Shown piece after piece: positions 106-47,335 of a DNA stretch of 47,547 bases. The translations under genes and the position numbers were made by a program. The notes below the pieces were generated by a model. That model was not told where the DNA came from and did no database searches. It worked only from the letters and a program-made list of their open reading frames with translations. The first letter of the stretch is position 1, and each line of letters starts with the position of its first letter. Source of the stretch: Bacteroidaceae bacterium (GTDB lineage Bacteria > Bacteroidota > Bacteroidia > Bacteroidales > Bacteroidaceae); NCBI GenBank assembly GCA_024401185.1, contig JAKSLO010000007.1, positions 1 through 47,547 of the forward strand, in the 5' to 3' direction.

Positions 106-424
106 TCTTATCACTCAAATTTAGACACAAAATGCCTGCAATTAGGATAGGCATAAAAAAAGCCATTTGTCACGTGATACTTTATGAGTTCATGGTTCAT
201 AGTCCATATAGTTCATAGTGCACTGGTATCTTTGCAGTATCAAACGCAAGGGGTGGATTTCGTTTTTTGTGACATGAATGCAAAGATGCGAAACTTGACT
301 TATGGAATTCAGATAACAAATATTCTTGTCAAATGGCCTGTTTTTCGCCATTCGGTTGCTATTCACTTTTCCTTCACTCTTCCTTCGGCTTTCCTACGCT
401 TATGGTTTTGCTTCATTCCTGCTT

Positions 425-490
425 AACTCCCACGTTCGTCCCACTCTAAGTGGGAGCGAGGTGGGAGGGAAGTGGGAGGGAAGTGGGAGG
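425..490. repeat. 11-bp-phased inverted array 1 (GTGGGAG type)
   Basis: Six consecutive 11-bp units start at 425, 436, 447, 458, 469 and 480. The first two carry CCCAC and the last four carry GTGGGAG, so the array reverses orientation near 447 and can fold on itself. The two units from 469 are identical. It lies in non-coding DNA between the tRNA and the SDR operon. It shares architecture but not sequence with the arrays at 17880, 34607 and 35083. Confidence 0.75.
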
Positions 491-17835: not shown

Positions 17836-17879
17836 GGGCTAATATTTTTTGGCATTGGTTTGATTACAGGGTGCACTTT

Positions 17880-17967
17880 ACTTTCACTCAGTTGGCTTAC
17901 GTCTGGCTTACGTGTTTTGACGTAAGCCAGACGTAAGCCAACTGAGTGAAACACGAGTGAAACTAAG
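17880..17967. repeat. 11-bp-phased inverted array 2 with perfect 32-bp arms
   Basis: Arms 17882-17913 and 17920-17951 are perfect reverse complements (32 bp) around a 6-nt loop GTTTTG. Within the arms the sequence repeats every 11 bp (GGCTTACG units at 17891 and 17902, AAGCCA units at 17924 and 17935, GTGAAAC units at 17946 and 17957). It directly abuts the truncated susC. The loop is too short to hold a promoter, so this is not an invertible switch of the usual kind. Confidence 0.85.
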
Positions 17968-31239: not shown

Positions 31240-34200
31240 TTAGAAATTAACCTTCACACCGAAGTTATAGACACGAAGATTCGGGTATCTGATGCCACGC
31301 TCTACGTTACCACCCTCAGCCTCGGGGTCATTACCTTTGAATGAGGTGAAGGTAAGAAGGTTCTGAGCGGTTGCATACACACGTACAGAGTTGAACAATG
31401 GTATCCACTTGGGCTTGTTGAAGGTATAGCCAATCTCAACATTCTTCAAACGCACATAGCTTGTAGAGATAAGCCAAGCACGTGAGTCACGGTTGTTGTG
31501 AACACGGTTAGAGAATGAGATACGGGGAAGCAGGGCATCCTGATTGTCCTCTGTCCATGAGTTATCGCAAACCCACTGGGTAAGAGCCGATGTATTGGTA
31601 GAACCAAACTGGTCACGATAGTATGTGTTGAGCATACGATCCACATTGCCTGCACCTACCCACATCATAGAAAAGTCGAGACCCTTCCAAGTGAAACCGG
31701 CGTTCAGAGAGTAGTTGATCTCTGGAATATCGGTATGACCATAAGCACGTTGGTCGTTAGCATCGATGAGACCATCACCGTTAAGGTCAACATACACACA
31801 GTCACCATACTTCAGAGCTACACCCTGATTAGGCATGGAAGTGCCGTACTTAGCTTTATAGCGGTCTTCCGTACCCTCGTTATAATATTCAAAGAGGTCA
31901 TATACAAAGTGAGTGCCGATGGGCAGGCCGGTACGTGCCAGATAGTCGTACTGGGGTGTGATTTCAAGCATATCGATGATCTTGTTGCGTACGAACGAGA
32001 AGCTGGGAGAGATGTTGTAACGGAAAGCACCTACCTTGTCACGCCATGCCAAAGAGATTTCATAACCATGGTTCTTTACGCGACCCTTATTTACGTAACC
32101 TGAAGGCAGGCTGGTAACAGCAGGAAGCAGCGCACGGTTACTTACAAGAATGTCCTTACGATCTTCCCAGAAGAAGTCGAGATTAAGCGAAAGCCTGTCG
32201 TTGAGGAAGTAAGCATCCATACCCAGGTTGTATTTAGAAGCAGTCTCCCATGTTACGTCGGGATTACCTGCGGTAAGTTCCTTGGCTGCCTTCAACCACT
32301 CTGTAGGATTGATACCGAAGTTGGTACCACGATTTTGGGGGTCAGTTGTCATGCTACCTGTATAGAATGCCCATGCACCGGGGAGATACATGAAACGCGC
32401 ACCATTGGTATTGTCATTACCGACCTTACCCCACGAACCACGAATCTTCAGATAGCTGATAGCCTTTGAAACAGGTATCCACCATTTTTCTGCAGAAGGA
32501 ATCCAACCTGCAGAGAATGAAGGGAATGTACCATAGCGCTTACCCTTGGCAAAGTTTTCTGAACCATTATAACCGATATTGAAGTCAATCATGTACTTTG
32601 TCTTGTAGTCGTATGTTACACGACCTACGAGACCCACATAACCTTTAGGAATTGAAGAGTATAAGCCATCAGAATCCCAAGGATAGTATGTCTTGCTCTG
32701 GTTGTAGAGCAAAAGTGCGCCAACGTTGTGATCGGCGAACTTGCGAGCGTAGTTCAGGCTGGCCTCAGTGTACCAGTTACGACTACCATAACGGCCTGTT
32801 GACTCGTTGTATTCTGCGGGCCATGCAGTACCTTGCTTACGCAATACCTCCTGACCATCCACAATGGTAGCTACATAGGTGGTACCCGTACCATAGTTCG
32901 AACGCATGCTCTTGGGAGACATGTACTCAGAGTTGTAAGAAGCCTTCACCTTGAAATCCAAGCCCTTGGTCAGGAAACTCATGTCGAGCTTGTACTGGAG
33001 GTCGAAGTTCAGAACGTTCTTGCTGGTGTAGTTGTAACCCAACTTATAATAGTTGGTCAAAGGTGCACGATCGTAGGGACCTACCAGAGTGGGGTCAGAA
33101 ACAATCAGACGACCCTGATCATCAATACCATAGCTGGCGTATGGAGTTGCACCCTGCATGTAACGGAAGATGAAGTCCTCACCCTGACCAGGAGTGGTAC
33201 GGTTCTCTACACGACCACCAAGGGTGATGGCGAGGGTGCTGTACTTTGACACATCAATATCAAGGTTAGCACGATAGTTGTAACGGTTGAAGGCGAAAGT
33301 CTCCTTGGGGTTATCTGAGAATGTCTTGAACAGTGAATTCTGATTCAGGAAACCGGCAGACACGAAGTAACGCATCTTATCGGTACCACCGCTCACGTTC
33401 ACATTCACCTGTTCCTGCCATGCAGCCTTGTTCATGGTCTTGTCAATCCAGTTCACGTTAGGATAGGTCATGGGCATGTCACCATCCTTGAAATGACGCA
33501 TGGCTTGCTCGTTGAACTTGATACCATCACCCTCATAACCTGTGTAGTCAGGGATGTACGAGGTACCAGGCCAGTTGCTCTGATCACGAGTATCAGTAAT
33601 CTGAGCATAGTTGAACATACGAGCATAGTTGTAAGAATCAGCAAAATCAATGTAGTCTGCAATCTGCTGAACGGCAGTTGATGCGGTGACGCTTACCTGA
33701 GCCTTACCCTCAGAACCACGCTTGGTGGTGACGAGGATAACACCATTGGCACCACGCACACCAAACACGGCTGTAGCAGAGGCATCCTTGAGGATTGAGA
33801 TATTCTCAACCTCATTGGGGTCAATCTGTGTGAACGAACGCTCTACACCATCCACAAGTACGAGAGGCTCAGCACTATTGAGCGAACCGGTACCACGTAC
33901 ACGGATAACGGGGTCGTCAGCACCTGGCATACCAGAGTACTGTACGGTCTGCACACCTGGCAGGTGGCCCTGAAGGGCGTTACCAAGGTTGGCAACAGGA
34001 GCCTTTAACAGGTCTTCCGAATTTACACTTGACACAGCACCAGTCAGTGTCACTTTCTTTTGAGTACCATAACCAATGACAACAGTCTCACCAAGAGTCG
34101 TGGCATCATCTGCCAACTTGACAGTTACATTGGAACGACCATTCAATGCGACTTCTTGAGCTTTGAAGCCGACATAAGATACAACAAGAGTGGCTTTTGC

Positions 34201-34404
34201 TGACTTTACGGAAAGCTTGAACTTACCGTTGATGTCGGTAATGACGCCATTCTGAGTACCTTTCTCGAGTACGGTTGCACCTACCAACTCATAACCCTCA
34301 TCATCAAACACTGTACCCGAAACGGACACCTGTGCTTTTGCCTGGGCCACGAAGAACATAAGCAGCGATACCAACGCGAGCTTTAGACTAAATGTTTTTT
34401 CCAT
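31240..34404 (-). CDS. SusC-family TonB-dependent transporter (first gene of the mannan PUL importer)
   Basis: A 1054-aa outer-membrane transporter. Signal peptide to ~24 (AQAKAQ), carboxypeptidase-regulatory-like domain (VSVSGTVFDDEGYELVGATV onward), TonB-box-like ETVVIGYGTQ, and a plug with IRVRGTGSLNS, LVLVDGVERS and ILKDASATAVFGVRGANGVI. The barrel ends in YNFGVKVNF. It is the first gene of a five-gene operon (susC-susD-susC-susD-SGBP). The best promoter is at 34959-34990, leaving a ~550-nt leader. Confidence 0.96.
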   Translation of the reverse strand: MEKTFSLKLALVSLLMFFVAQAKAQVSVSGTVFDDEGYELVGATVLEKGTQNGVITDINGKFKLSVKSAKATLVVSYVGFKAQEVALNGRSNVTVKLADDATTLGETVVIGYGTQKKVTLTGAVSSVNSEDLLKAPVANLGNALQGHLPGVQTVQYSGMPGADDPVIRVRGTGSLNSAEPLVLVDGVERSFTQIDPNEVENISILKDASATAVFGVRGANGVILVTTKRGSEGKAQVSVTASTAVQQIADYIDFADSYNYARMFNYAQITDTRDQSNWPGTSYIPDYTGYEGDGIKFNEQAMRHFKDGDMPMTYPNVNWIDKTMNKAAWQEQVNVNVSGGTDKMRYFVSAGFLNQNSLFKTFSDNPKETFAFNRYNYRANLDIDVSKYSTLAITLGGRVENRTTPGQGEDFIFRYMQGATPYASYGIDDQGRLIVSDPTLVGPYDRAPLTNYYKLGYNYTSKNVLNFDLQYKLDMSFLTKGLDFKVKASYNSEYMSPKSMRSNYGTGTTYVATIVDGQEVLRKQGTAWPAEYNESTGRYGSRNWYTEASLNYARKFADHNVGALLLYNQSKTYYPWDSDGLYSSIPKGYVGLVGRVTYDYKTKYMIDFNIGYNGSENFAKGKRYGTFPSFSAGWIPSAEKWWIPVSKAISYLKIRGSWGKVGNDNTNGARFMYLPGAWAFYTGSMTTDPQNRGTNFGINPTEWLKAAKELTAGNPDVTWETASKYNLGMDAYFLNDRLSLNLDFFWEDRKDILVSNRALLPAVTSLPSGYVNKGRVKNHGYEISLAWRDKVGAFRYNISPSFSFVRNKIIDMLEITPQYDYLARTGLPIGTHFVYDLFEYYNEGTEDRYKAKYGTSMPNQGVALKYGDCVYVDLNGDGLIDANDQRAYGHTDIPEINYSLNAGFTWKGLDFSMMWVGAGNVDRMLNTYYRDQFGSTNTSALTQWVCDNSWTEDNQDALLPRISFSNRVHNNRDSRAWLISTSYVRLKNVEIGYTFNKPKWIPLFNSVRVYATAQNLLTFTSFKGNDPEAEGGNVERGIRYPNLRVYNFGVKVNF

Positions 34405-34606
34405 CTTAATGGCTTTAAAGATTAGTTAATTATTTAATTAGTTTTTTTCTCTACAGGTTTAATTTCAATTTCAATTTTGAAGTATAGTTCTTTCACTCAA
34501 GTCCATTTATTTACGATTGACACATTTCATGTTATGCCATTGCTCTGCATAATTCACAATGCAGGGATGCTTTCCTTCGAGGTTTCTTCACGCTTCACTC
34601 TATGTG

Positions 34607-34658
34607 CGCTCAGTGTGCGTTCACAAATCCGTGGAGAACTGTGAGCGAACACTGAGTG
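34607..34658. repeat. 11-bp-phased imperfect inverted array 3
   Basis: CGCTCAGTGTGCGTTCACA (34607-34625) is an imperfect reverse complement (3 mismatches in 19) of TGTGAGCGAACACTGAGTG (34640-34658), with a 14-nt loop. In both arms related units recur every 11 bp (GCGCTCA then GCGTTCA; TGAGCGA then TGAGTGA). Further GCGCAC/GTGCGC pairing is possible just outside. It is the most diverged of the four arrays. Confidence 0.6.
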
Positions 34659-34780
34659 ATCCTAATGCGCACATTGAACGGACTCAAAAGCGATAGCTTC
34701 GGTTAACTCCATGCAGATTGTTCCATATCATTATCATTTGTCTAAGCATCTACTTCCTGAAAAGAAGCGCACATAGTTGA

Positions 34781-34828
34781 TAAAGAGCAAATTGTCAAAC
34801 TAGCAAAGACTAAAGAGCAAATGTCAAA
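34781..34828. repeat. Imperfect 19-nt direct repeat in the PUL leader
   Basis: TAAAGAGCAAATTGTCAAA (34781-34799) recurs as TAAAGAGCAAATGTCAAA (34811-34828), 30 bp apart, which is about three helical turns. The spacing would suit a DNA-binding regulator, but the site is 130-180 nt downstream of the predicted promoter, so its role is uncertain. Confidence 0.5.
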
Positions 34829-34958
34829 AAAGTAAATGAACTTATTAAAATAGTCCAATTTGAAATTACCAGATAGCTTTTCTTTTTTTTAGTTAAGAGA
34901 CTAAGATGAATCTCTGCCCGTTTTTGCAAGGCTTTGGTTCACATCGTCTCAGTTGATA

Positions 34959-34990
34959 CAAAATTAAGCTTTTTTTTTATTCTGAGCAAA
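34959..34990 (-). promoter_or_regulatory. Bacteroidetes-type promoter of the mannan-importer operon
   Basis: Minus-strand TTTG (34990-34987), exactly 20 nt, then TAATTTTG (34966-34959): a full match to TTTG-N20-TAnnTTTG. The start would be near 34955. It lies just downstream of array 4, so the array separates the enzyme operon from this promoter. Confidence 0.72.
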
Positions 34991-35082
34991 ATTTTGTGGG
35001 CAGTATGTTAAAATTAAGTAAACATCAGTTAAAATTTAGTAAGCATCCGTCTGTAATACGGTAAAATGACAGATTGCCATGA

Positions 35083-35302
35083 CTCCGCTATGCCTCCGTT
35101 AAGGGTCCGCTATGCCTCTGCTAAATGTCTGCTATTTCTCTGCTAAATGTCTGCTATTTCTCTGCTAAATGTCTGCTAAATAGCAGAGAAATAGCAGAGG
35201 AATAGCAGAGAAATAGCAGAGGAACAGCAGAGGCATAACAGACTATTAGCAGACTATTAGTAGGCTATTAGTAGGCTATTAGCAGGCTATTAGCAGGAAA
35301 CC
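35083..35302. repeat. 11-bp-phased inverted array 4: twenty units
   Basis: Twenty consecutive units of exactly 11 bp fill 220 bp without a slip in phase. Units 1-9 (35083-35181) are variants of CTCTGCTAAAT or GTCTGCTATTT. Units 10-20 (35182-35302) are variants of the reverse complement (AGCAGAGAAAT, AGCAGAGGAAT, AGCAGACTATT, AGTAGGCTATT). The orientation flips between units 9 and 10, so the whole can form one long imperfect hairpin or cruciform. Units diverge progressively away from the centre. It lies between the 3' end of the AGE gene and the importer promoter and may terminate the enzyme operon. It is not CRISPR-like. Confidence 0.9.
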
Positions 35303-35363
35303 ACACTAAATATGAATCATTCGGGTTGGTTATAAGGTTATGGCGTTTTGAGGTTATAAGGGG

Positions 35364-36629
35364 TTAGCCTATTCGTTCCATAAGTTCAAGGCACATGCGT
35401 GAGTTATGGTAGGGACATTTCCAAAATCCCGCATGGTCATCCTTTTTGTTGATATTACGCTCTGCATCGCGACTCCAGAACCATTCTCCGAGTTCATTGT
35501 CAATGAGGTTTTCCTTGATGTAGTTCCAGCAGTTGATGGCTTTTTTTAGGGCAGCCTCATCATAGAAATACTGATAGATATTAAAGAAACCTACCACAGT
35601 CTCGGCTTGTACCCACCAATGGCGGTCGGCATCAACATGTCCGTTGTCAAGATTGGCCTCGTGGGTCATACTGCCATCAGCATTTAATCCCTTTTCGCTG
35701 GCCTTGGCAACAAGCTGTACAATAGGCTCAACCTGAGCCAGAACGTCCTTATCGTCAAGCACCAAGGCTGCCTCGTGCAGCAACCAGGAGCACTCTATGT
35801 CATGCCCGTAGCTCTCCAGCCAGCCAGCACCACGCGTCCAGTCCATTTCAAAGAAAAGGTCAAGATGATGGGTGTCTGGGTTGAGTATCTTATGACAAAA
35901 GATGTCAATGAGATTGCGGAGAGCACGTTCCAGTTTTGAATACACTTCAGAAGAAACCAACCATCTTGTTTCATCCTTTGCAGCAAGTTCCTTGAGGCAA
36001 CGGTAGAGGTTGGTGTAAGGTTCAATGATATGCAGATGCGTGTTCTGTGACTTAGGGTAATTGGCATCAAGGTCAGAGAGTCGCATGTCGGCCATCTCAT
36101 TCCACTCACGTGTGCAAGCCTCGATGTAGCCATTATGTACCTCATCAAAACTATGCTCCTCAATACTTTCGTAGAGTGCTACGGCAGTACGGAGCGCTAT
36201 CTGCATGGTATTTGACTGTTTCGCATCAAAGTGCTCGCTGATCGCCCTGACATATTCTGTAAGGCCATAGATGCAGAAGCCGATGGCATAGAACTGCTTC
36301 TTGGTGTCAACAGGCTGTCCAAGACAGTCGAGTTCCCAGAAAGCACCACCATATAGGGGGTCTATAAAATGCTCCAGGATATAGTCCTTGGCACGAGTGG
36401 CAGCAGCAAGATACTCCGAACGACCCGTGACACGATAGGCAGCAGAGAACGACCACAAGATGCGGGCGTTAAGGATGCAACCCTTGTTGGCATCCTTAAC
36501 GAGTGTACCATCGCCCTTCATCCGCCCGTAGAAGCCACCATTCTCCTCATCCTGAAACTTGAGCCAGAAGGATAGAATGTTATCATGGAGGCACTTCTCT
36601 ACCTCTTGTTTGAGCACAATTGGAGTCAT
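35364..36629 (-). CDS. AGE-family cellobiose/mannobiose 2-epimerase
   Basis: A 421-aa cytoplasmic protein of the N-acylglucosamine-2-epimerase (AGE) family, with an (alpha/alpha)6 barrel. Recognisable segments are NGGFYGRMKGDG, NARILWSFSAAYRV, YGGAFWELD, YGHDIECSWLLHEAA, HWWVQAETVVGFFN and GFWKCPYHNSRMCLE, which carry the expected catalytic histidines. In mannan loci such enzymes convert beta-1,4-mannobiose to mannosylglucose (and epimerise cellobiose). GH130 lies two genes upstream in the same operon, and the two enzymes form the known mannobiose pathway. Last gene of the enzyme operon. Confidence 0.9.
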   Translation of the reverse strand: MTPIVLKQEVEKCLHDNILSFWLKFQDEENGGFYGRMKGDGTLVKDANKGCILNARILWSFSAAYRVTGRSEYLAAATRAKDYILEHFIDPLYGGAFWELDCLGQPVDTKKQFYAIGFCIYGLTEYVRAISEHFDAKQSNTMQIALRTAVALYESIEEHSFDEVHNGYIEACTREWNEMADMRLSDLDANYPKSQNTHLHIIEPYTNLYRCLKELAAKDETRWLVSSEVYSKLERALRNLIDIFCHKILNPDTHHLDLFFEMDWTRGAGWLESYGHDIECSWLLHEAALVLDDKDVLAQVEPIVQLVAKASEKGLNADGSMTHEANLDNGHVDADRHWWVQAETVVGFFNIYQYFYDEAALKKAINCWNYIKENLIDNELGEWFWSRDAERNINKKDDHAGFWKCPYHNSRMCLELMERIG

Positions 36630-47147: not shown

Positions 47148-47150
47148 AGA

Positions 47151-47205
47151 AGTTAGGGGAAGTTAGAGGAAGTTAGAGGAAATAAAAGGAAGTTAGGGGA
47201 AGTTT
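47151..47205. repeat. 10-bp tandem repeat (AGTTAGRGGA)
   Basis: Five 10-bp units (AGTTAGGGGA, AGTTAGAGGA twice, a diverged AATAAAAGGA, AGTTAGGGGA) start at 47151 and end with a partial unit. They lie directly upstream of the GH5_7-CE7 start codon on the minus strand, so they are probably transcribed between GH31 and this gene. Confidence 0.85.
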
Positions 47206-47212
47206 AAGGCTC

Positions 47213-47318
47213 GGAATACCGGAATACCGAAACCACCGGAATACCGAAACCACCGGAATACCGAAACCACCGGAATACCGGAATACCGCCCCTCGGAATA
47301 CCGGAATACCGGAATACC
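47213..47318. repeat. GGAATACC repeat cluster (8- and 17-bp periods)
   Basis: Nine copies of GGAATACC occur in about 106 bp. Some are directly tandem (8-bp period). Three are spaced by GAAACCACC, giving a 17-bp unit. The cluster fills the space between the GH31 stop and the 10-bp repeat. It has no cas context and units are far too short for CRISPR. Confidence 0.88.
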
Positions 47319-47335
47319 GAAAGCCCCGAAAAACC

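Follow-up and report, generated by a model that had tools for sequence, protein, structure and literature searches.

BrickBuilt, a MITE of Porphyromonas gingivalis, is a species-limited, intergenic element of the Bacteroidales with predicted long stem-loops and tandem units of varying number, in all of which it resembles the arrays described here (PMC4596501). The element has 19 copies in one strain and is also found in P. gulae (PMC4596501). Extragenic palindromes that occur in many copies and in composite arrangements, again as observed here, are known as REP and BIME sequences (PMC3733652, PMC2817692); REP are palindromes of 20–40 bp, one large group of which is tied to RAYT transposases (PMC3733652). 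Short intergenic tandem arrays, a further likeness, are formed by the heptamer TAACTGA in Beggiatoaceae, cyanobacteria, and five Bacteroidetes (PMC4679880). Finally, inversion of a loop or spacer between unchanged arms, together with matching of the arms, is a mark of template switching between inverted repeats that is also seen here; such hairpins have been described, event by event, for RNA genes and yeast coding genes (PMC8794818, PMC8604942).

The window, that is, the whole stretch of 47,547 nucleotides analyzed, forms a single contig in a draft genome of 2.87 Mb (180 contigs, 83% complete), the nearest named relatives of which, judged by epimerase orthologues, are uncultured Prevotellaceae/Bacteroidales. 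Its principal array is one of more than 100 palindromic repeats built in 11-base steps, mostly intergenic, in this one genome. The original prediction of twenty phased 11-bp units, nine in one orientation and then eleven reversed, is borne out by the sequence: 20 consecutive 11-mers follow one another without insertion or deletion, with units 1–9 reading YTCYGYTAnnn, units 10–20 reading roughly the reverse complement, and the flip after unit nine taking the form TCTGCTA-AA-TAGCAGA (35172–35187). The array is located in a gap of 960 bp between genes for a TonB-dependent receptor and an N-acylglucosamine 2-epimerase (Table 1).

Table 1. Positions, strands, and supporting evidence of the arrays and neighboring genes in the window.
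Feature	Position	Strand	Basis
Family D array: a flip followed by about 4 units of AGTGGGAGGGA	411..490	+	Sequence, flip scan, unit array on 4 contigs
Family A element with outer 11-bp units around a core of 46 bp, GGCTTACGTCTGGCTTACGT-N6-ACGTAAGCCAGACGTAAGCC, at 17894-17939	17872..17961	-	Half-core matches, 46-copy alignment
TonB-dependent receptor (SusC-like) gene; start about 180 bp from family B element	31240..34404	-	Pfam PF07715, PF13715
Family B element with arms of 11-bp units; its conserved core, CACAAATCCGTGGAGAAC, at 34622-34639	34586..34674	+	Core pattern, sequence model, alignments
Family C array, 9 + 11 units of 11 bp	35083..35302	.	Sequence, BLAST, centre pattern, predicted fold
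N-acylglucosamine 2-epimerase family gene; 3' end about 60 bp from family C array	35364..36629	-	Pfam PF07221, E 3.8e-29

At least four dispersed families of this 11-bp flip build, designated A, B, C, and D, are present in the genome. The family A core consists of GGCTTACGTCTGGCTTACGT, six bases, and then the reverse complement of GGCTTACGTCTGGCTTACGT; the half-core matches its own genome 58 times forward and 58 times in reverse, which amounts to about 58 copies, and single matches with 3 mismatches only were found in nine of 60 relatives. The 18-bp core of family B, CACAAATCCGTGGAGAAC, has 45 sites at up to 2 mismatches in its own genome and one 2-mismatch site each in five of the 60 relatives. 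A sequence-only model of the same family detected at least 59 distinct places (E ≤ 0.01; 70 of 809 candidates scored); in the 60 relatives, under stricter filters and with 70 scored candidates per genome, it gave a single marginal match (E 0.003). The unit array of family C, to which the principal array belongs, was found by BLAST at 6 places in its own genome and nowhere in the 60 relatives; its centre pattern, with at most 1 mismatch, was found at 7 places, one of them beyond the 6, and 1-mismatch matches in 11 of the 60 relatives are about as frequent as those of a reversed control pattern. The unit array of family D is present on four contigs (4 places), and its flip was seen in the window and, with a period of 22, on contig C150. 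As judged from such matches, families A, B, and C are without a convincing counterpart in the 60 relatives. Among viral contigs, neither the family A core nor the family C centre had a match; the 17-base core of family B occurs exactly in two viral contigs (L353, L354).

Contig C96 has copies of A, C, and B next to one another, and copies of both A and B are found on C105, C126, and C35. Contigs also start or stop inside or beside copies of A, B, or C (C113:1, C54:3, C136:1, C69:10, C141:36, and the ends of C93, C33, C75, and C161), and the copy and unit counts are therefore lower bounds. A 663-bp segment, 90% alike, bears the family C array on both C141 (11951–12611) and C31 (6579–7211); C157 shares 254 bp of this segment and diverges before the array, and a sub-threshold match to a Y1 transposase is located about 2 kb from the segment on C141. 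About 80 bp to the right of the family A core are conserved in several copies (L272, L015, L131). The other strand of this flank reads TTTG-N20-TAnnTTTG, which we take to resemble the Bacteroides promoter consensus; a promoter there would direct transcription into the hairpin.

Three other arrays in the window had been singled out for the same period and flip, and these are indeed arrays of this build, with 425–490 belonging to family D, 17880–17967 to family A, and 34607–34658 to family B. They had also been described as unrelated in sequence, which is only partly right, since the outer units of families A and B are alike by eye (TTTCACTC / GAGTGAAA). Likewise, the notion of a shared architecture without shared sequence is only partly right inside the window, but holds by eye between species of the genus.

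Flip arrays were scored as pairs of inverted matches that overlap and have centres one period apart. The sample from the genome amounted to 609 kb, comprising the window, which had been selected for the finding itself, and 35 stretches drawn by contig number; five contigs picked for bearing family C were excluded from the period count. At the main threshold, 27 flip loci were found (9 of period 7, 8 of period 11, 2 of period 22, and 8 spread), compared with none in first-order Markov (5 runs), third-order Markov (3 runs), or block-shuffled (3 runs) sequence, and flip arrays of the window type are thus not due to chance. At the lowest threshold, 56 loci were found (18 of period 11 and 13 of period 7), and the third-order Markov and block-shuffled sequences gave 15 and 16, respectively, over all three runs together. 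Whether 11 bp is commoner than other periods depends on the threshold: it is the commonest flip period at the two lower thresholds (18 of 56 and 15 of 42), but 7 bp leads at the four higher ones (for example, 9 versus 8 of 27), and among plain direct arrays of the same sample lag 7 (18 arrays) exceeds lag 11 (13) and lag 8 (11). Because 7-bp arrays are about as common here, the 11-bp period is not unique, but one of two peaks.

Arrays of other periods were noted along the way. Flip arrays of 7 bp are of TTCATAG / CTATGAA and AATTCAT types (L015 8455–8656 on contig C10, L124, L126, L129, and L113), and heptamers of a similar kind are present in congeneric species (G017, G036). Degenerate 8-bp arrays with a TCGAT-centred unit are found at L023 5646–5792 and L129 3992–4091, and at 47149–47322 in the window a 10-bp array (GAAGTTAGRG) adjoins a 17-bp array (ACCGGAATACCGAAACC).

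The spacing of the units is more constant than their sequence. In family B, 37 copies were aligned gapless over 92 columns with a mean column identity of 76%, six of the 43 copies having been dropped: three cut by contig ends, one coding chance match (L012), one copy with its right arm lost (L150), and one with its left arm replaced (L157), which MAFFT fits only with a gap, yet whose units look in phase by eye. In family A, 46 copies were aligned gapless over 90 columns, with four of 50 dropped as too short on one side. Parsimony on FastTree trees gave 398 changes in B and 279 in A, and no gap in either. Across five pairs of paralogous stretches from the same genome, 94 substitutions were counted alongside 7 small indels, none of them a multiple of 11 in length and three of them perhaps repeat counts of the same events; by simple arithmetic, this rate predicts about 17–30 indels in B and 12–21 in A, and none was seen in the aligned copies. 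In these alignments, the 11-bp spacing is kept while the arm sequence diverges. The absence of gaps could partly reflect gene conversion between copies, which could also inflate the change counts, or the choice of copies by a core of fixed length, and the paralogous pairs contain parts of elements, so that a spacing constraint is supported, but not proven.

Changes in arm length were observed in whole units. The family C arrays on C141 and C31 have 9 and 7 units, respectively, in the left arm (22 bp) and like right arms, and an 11-bp insertion in two family A copies (L272 and L015) is absent from five others aligned. The best reading, and a reasonably probable one, is that the arms change by slippage of unit length. 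According to the original prediction, the units nearest the centre are most alike, as if the array had grown from the middle. The inner units are alike, but an outer block of the right arm (35237–35291; similarity between neighboring units 0.82–1.0) is as uniform as the inner block (0.82–0.91). With a break (0.55) between these two blocks and a 22-bp repeat in the inner left arm, the array looks like the product of local duplication rather than of growth from one point; growth from the middle, to which the unit similarities of the right arm lend no support, was rejected.

The loop of family A behaves differently from the arms. In 50 copies, the six bases read CAAAAC (29), AAAAAC (18), GAAAAC (2), or AGAAAC (1), and they are found in either orientation relative to the arms. 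Asymmetric copies, when oriented by the A-rich loop, fall into two kinds, in each of which the two arm types are found in either order around the loop (12 versus 5 and 13 versus 7 copies), with nine copies fitting neither kind. Between two copies (L015 and L272), just 2 of 66 arm letters differ, yet the loop is reversed, and 12 of the 25 closest pairs are in opposite loop orientation. The nearest neighbor has an inverted loop in 25 of 45 copies (45 of the 46 have a neighbor within 22 differences), a count in which nearest neighbors are not independent and the orientation call is weak where both arms are alike. The centre of family C differs likewise, reading TT on C141 versus AA on C31. The family A loop was probably flipped repeatedly by template switches during DNA copying; the resolution of a cruciform would also invert a loop. 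An assembly artefact at a 46-bp palindrome present in about 58 copies could have flipped some of the loops.

Taken as a whole, the array is probably one copy of a palindromic, apparently non-coding, mostly intergenic, and species-specific set of REP/MITE-like hairpins with an 11-bp step. The copies would disperse as small REP/MITE-like elements, predicted to form hairpins, and are likely to have spread as small mobile elements. Arm units may be gained and lost by replication slippage, which moves whole units, so that the arms would change in multiples of 11. The loop may be inverted, and the arms occasionally matched, by a polymerase template switch across the hairpin or by cruciform resolution, and the constant spacing may reflect a helical-register constraint, for example a factor contacting the hairpin once per turn. 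The active process put forward in the original prediction is in keeping with the near-random loop orientation in close family A copies, the arm steps of 11 and 22 bp, and the dispersal to more than 100 places. Among the 46 family A copies, the exact ends of which are uncertain, no target-site duplication of any length was found above the maximum of shuffled partners, and no RAYT (PF01797, Y1 tyrosine transposase) was found over the cut-off in a genome that is 83% complete (best 22.4 versus 23 bits); the argument for mobility is therefore the dispersal itself.

A different reading is that the arrays are kept as 3'-end hairpins, either terminators or mRNA-protecting stems, in which only pairing and spacing are selected and the sequence is free. 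This appears unlikely; the gene positions given below and the weak locus-level covariation of family A bear on it.

The predicted RNA fold of the principal array has an energy of −110.9 / −116.9 kcal/mol, with z of about −14 / −16 relative to 100 mononucleotide shuffles; against such shuffles, the other window arrays have z of −11 (A), −5.5 to −6.7 (D), and −2.4 to −3 (B). The arms of family B pair in registers 11 apart, with 64–68% of cells paired at sums 10 and 21 and about 50% at 32, over a background median of 35–38% for all sums, and the named structure has 69.6% of cells paired versus 25–49% when slid. Covariation in family B (0.199 versus 0.140) was reached by none of 500 shuffles, a test that overstates covariation for related copies, and B1 and B2 look like two clades; pair exchanges at the clade level include A-T to G-C and T-A to C-G. 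Neither the number of pairs with both sides changed (33 of 500 shuffles) nor that of further pair types (156 of 500) is outstanding, paired changes in family B standing out on three of five measures, and the consensus that RNAalifold itself proposes for family B has only 9 pairs. Rfam, at its gathering score, gave no match in the window.

Family A differs in this respect. Its whole-structure covariation is not above that of shuffles (0.090 versus 0.094; 366 of 500), and its inner pairs hardly vary. Only for the unit adjoining the core is pairing with the true partner better than with dealt partners, both in 27 symmetric copies (0.859 versus 0.808; 1 of 2000) and in all 46 copies (0.771 versus 0.736; 33 of 2000), and the fourth unit, which is the next one outward, pairs worse with its own partner (2000 of 2000). 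Thus, locus-by-locus upkeep of pairing is not general. Complementarity is a property of the family, with only weak upkeep at the single locus. Compensatory evolution at the locus level was considered as a general rule and is rejected by family A. Selection for structure, also raised in the original prediction, is favored only in part, by the gapless spacing despite divergence and by the paired changes in family B; against it stands family A, in which pairing is no better than with dealt arms, except in the unit next to the core.

The positions relative to genes are likewise divided between families. Family B avoids divergent gaps, which make up 25% of gap length but hold 2 of 31 placed copies (p 0.008), a count that excludes 5 copies within predicted ORFs and 7 at the edges of contigs or stretches; the 5 of 43 copies inside ORFs come from a crude caller, and most of these ORFs are small. 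A mild avoidance was also observed for flip arrays of any period, with 13 of 89 in divergent gaps versus 22.8 expected (p 0.009; 17 in ORFs and 13 at edges left out), but no single group reaches significance by itself (p 0.05 to 0.64), and there is no clear enrichment in convergent gaps (p 0.09). Family A shows no gene-end bias, with 4 of 10 copies in divergent gaps, and A and B together have 6 of 41 (p 0.08); gene-end bias as a general rule was rejected on the family A count. The family C array itself stands close behind the end of the epimerase gene, and past the orthologous gene (78 of the 80 loci were tried), 2 of the 27 gaps that measure 100 bp or more contain a 9-bp flip array of unrelated sequence, and the other 25 contain no flip array. 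No intrinsic terminator (GC stem and T run) was found on either strand of 34400–35400, that is, none with a U run near the array. A role of the arrays at gene ends is only hinted at.

Flip loci are also present in other species. In stretches from seven other genomes of the genus, 59 flip loci were found, of which 25 have a period of 11, 22, or 33 (mostly 22), 16 have a period of 7, and 18 are spread; the sequences are unrelated to families A–D by eye. All ten flip loci in one of these genomes (G012; L187–L196) have a 22-bp period, usually with about four units, and the 22-bp units look palindromic themselves (GGTTAACC and CTTCTGCAGAGAAG types). Another congeneric genome (G006; L339–L352) contains dispersed 11-bp direct arrays of TGCATTCGGAT type, noticed through the reversed-pattern control; the pattern matches 14 times, on 7 contigs, and the match on C3 looks like chance. 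At 80 epimerase loci of other Bacteroidales, periods of 7, 8, and 9 account for 20 of 32 flip loci and period 11 for one. Flip arrays of CGCAAAGA type, closely similar in sequence, are found again in different Bacteroidales genomes (L033 8759–8820, L037 6001–6045, and L062 460–631) and on contig C157 of the present genome (L266), and CACAGAG-type flip arrays of period 8 or 9 recur likewise in Bacteroidales (L107 8095–8158 and L080 7408–7677).

A bolder and rather improbable proposal is that of a genus-wide hairpin system that inherits helical register, not sequence, in which each species would have its own palindromes in 11- or 22-bp steps, recognized by a shared factor acting once per turn. 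Under this proposal, the loop is flipped until its orientation is near random, and can therefore act as an inversion switch.

It is quite doubtful that a DNA-binding protein instead uses the units as its sites, with one unit for each helical turn and the arrays serving as operator-like platforms. The family C units, each with about seven conserved and four freer positions by eye, would suit such a protein, as would the direct arrays of another sequence in G006 and the uniform 22-bp period in G012, but the unit sequence varies between families in one genome and between species, and the loop, which should not matter to a platform, is nearly fixed (47 of 50 copies read CAAAAC or AAAAAC). That the arrays are a neutral by-product of slippage and inverted duplication in long intergenic gaps, with neither an element nor a constraint, is very doubtful, for although flip arrays of 7, 8, 9, and 10 bp also occur here and in relatives, and adjacent units are the most similar, as expected from slippage, an independent origin of near-identical cores at about 58 and 59 places is implausible, the spacing is gapless through hundreds of substitutions, and no flip locus was found in 100 kb each of Segatella baroniae and Escherichia coli.

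Returning to the reading as dispersed REP/MITE-like hairpins, the genome offers some 50 near-identical hairpins with scrambled loops and fixed arms, from which the rate and rules of inversion are measurable without a reporter. Furthermore, spacing is separable from sequence, since the 11-bp step survives hundreds of substitutions, and the arrays of other congeners differ, often with steps of 22 or 11 bp. A factor that did read such hairpins once per turn would represent a novel type of structural reader of DNA or RNA.

With respect to the known systems, BrickBuilt differs in having 23-nt direct repeats between a leader and a tail, with IS5-like terminal repeats (PMC4596501), a plan not found here, where the units are of 11 bp and flip. 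The mid-array flip, the 11-bp step, and the inversion of the loop are features of the present arrays, and none is described for BrickBuilt in the parts of its account drawn on here (PMC4596501). The heptamer arrays are 7-bp direct repeats of one sequence, with one inverted repeat versus 169 direct sets in the main genome (PMC4679880). The published template-switch hairpins are single events, in contrast to a dispersed family with near-random loop orientation. As in REP, many extragenic palindromic copies are present in one genome (about 58 copies of A and 59 places of B). With regard to the GTAG or CGTC tag at one end of REP, some family A copies read GTAGGA outside the core by eye. Unlike REP, the family A core is 46 bp with outer 11-bp units, and family B aligns over 92 columns. 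The copies are short, numerous, and mostly intergenic, as MITEs are, and presumably non-coding. Given the difference from REP in size, the lack of a RAYT over the cut-off and of a target duplication, and the difference from BrickBuilt in plan, the present repeats are not members of those families; full-text searches of open-licence papers gave no description of 11-bp flip arrays, in agreement with the earlier statement that they fit no named family. Overall, the families are REP-like and MITE-like in copy number and place, and form a variant outside these families.
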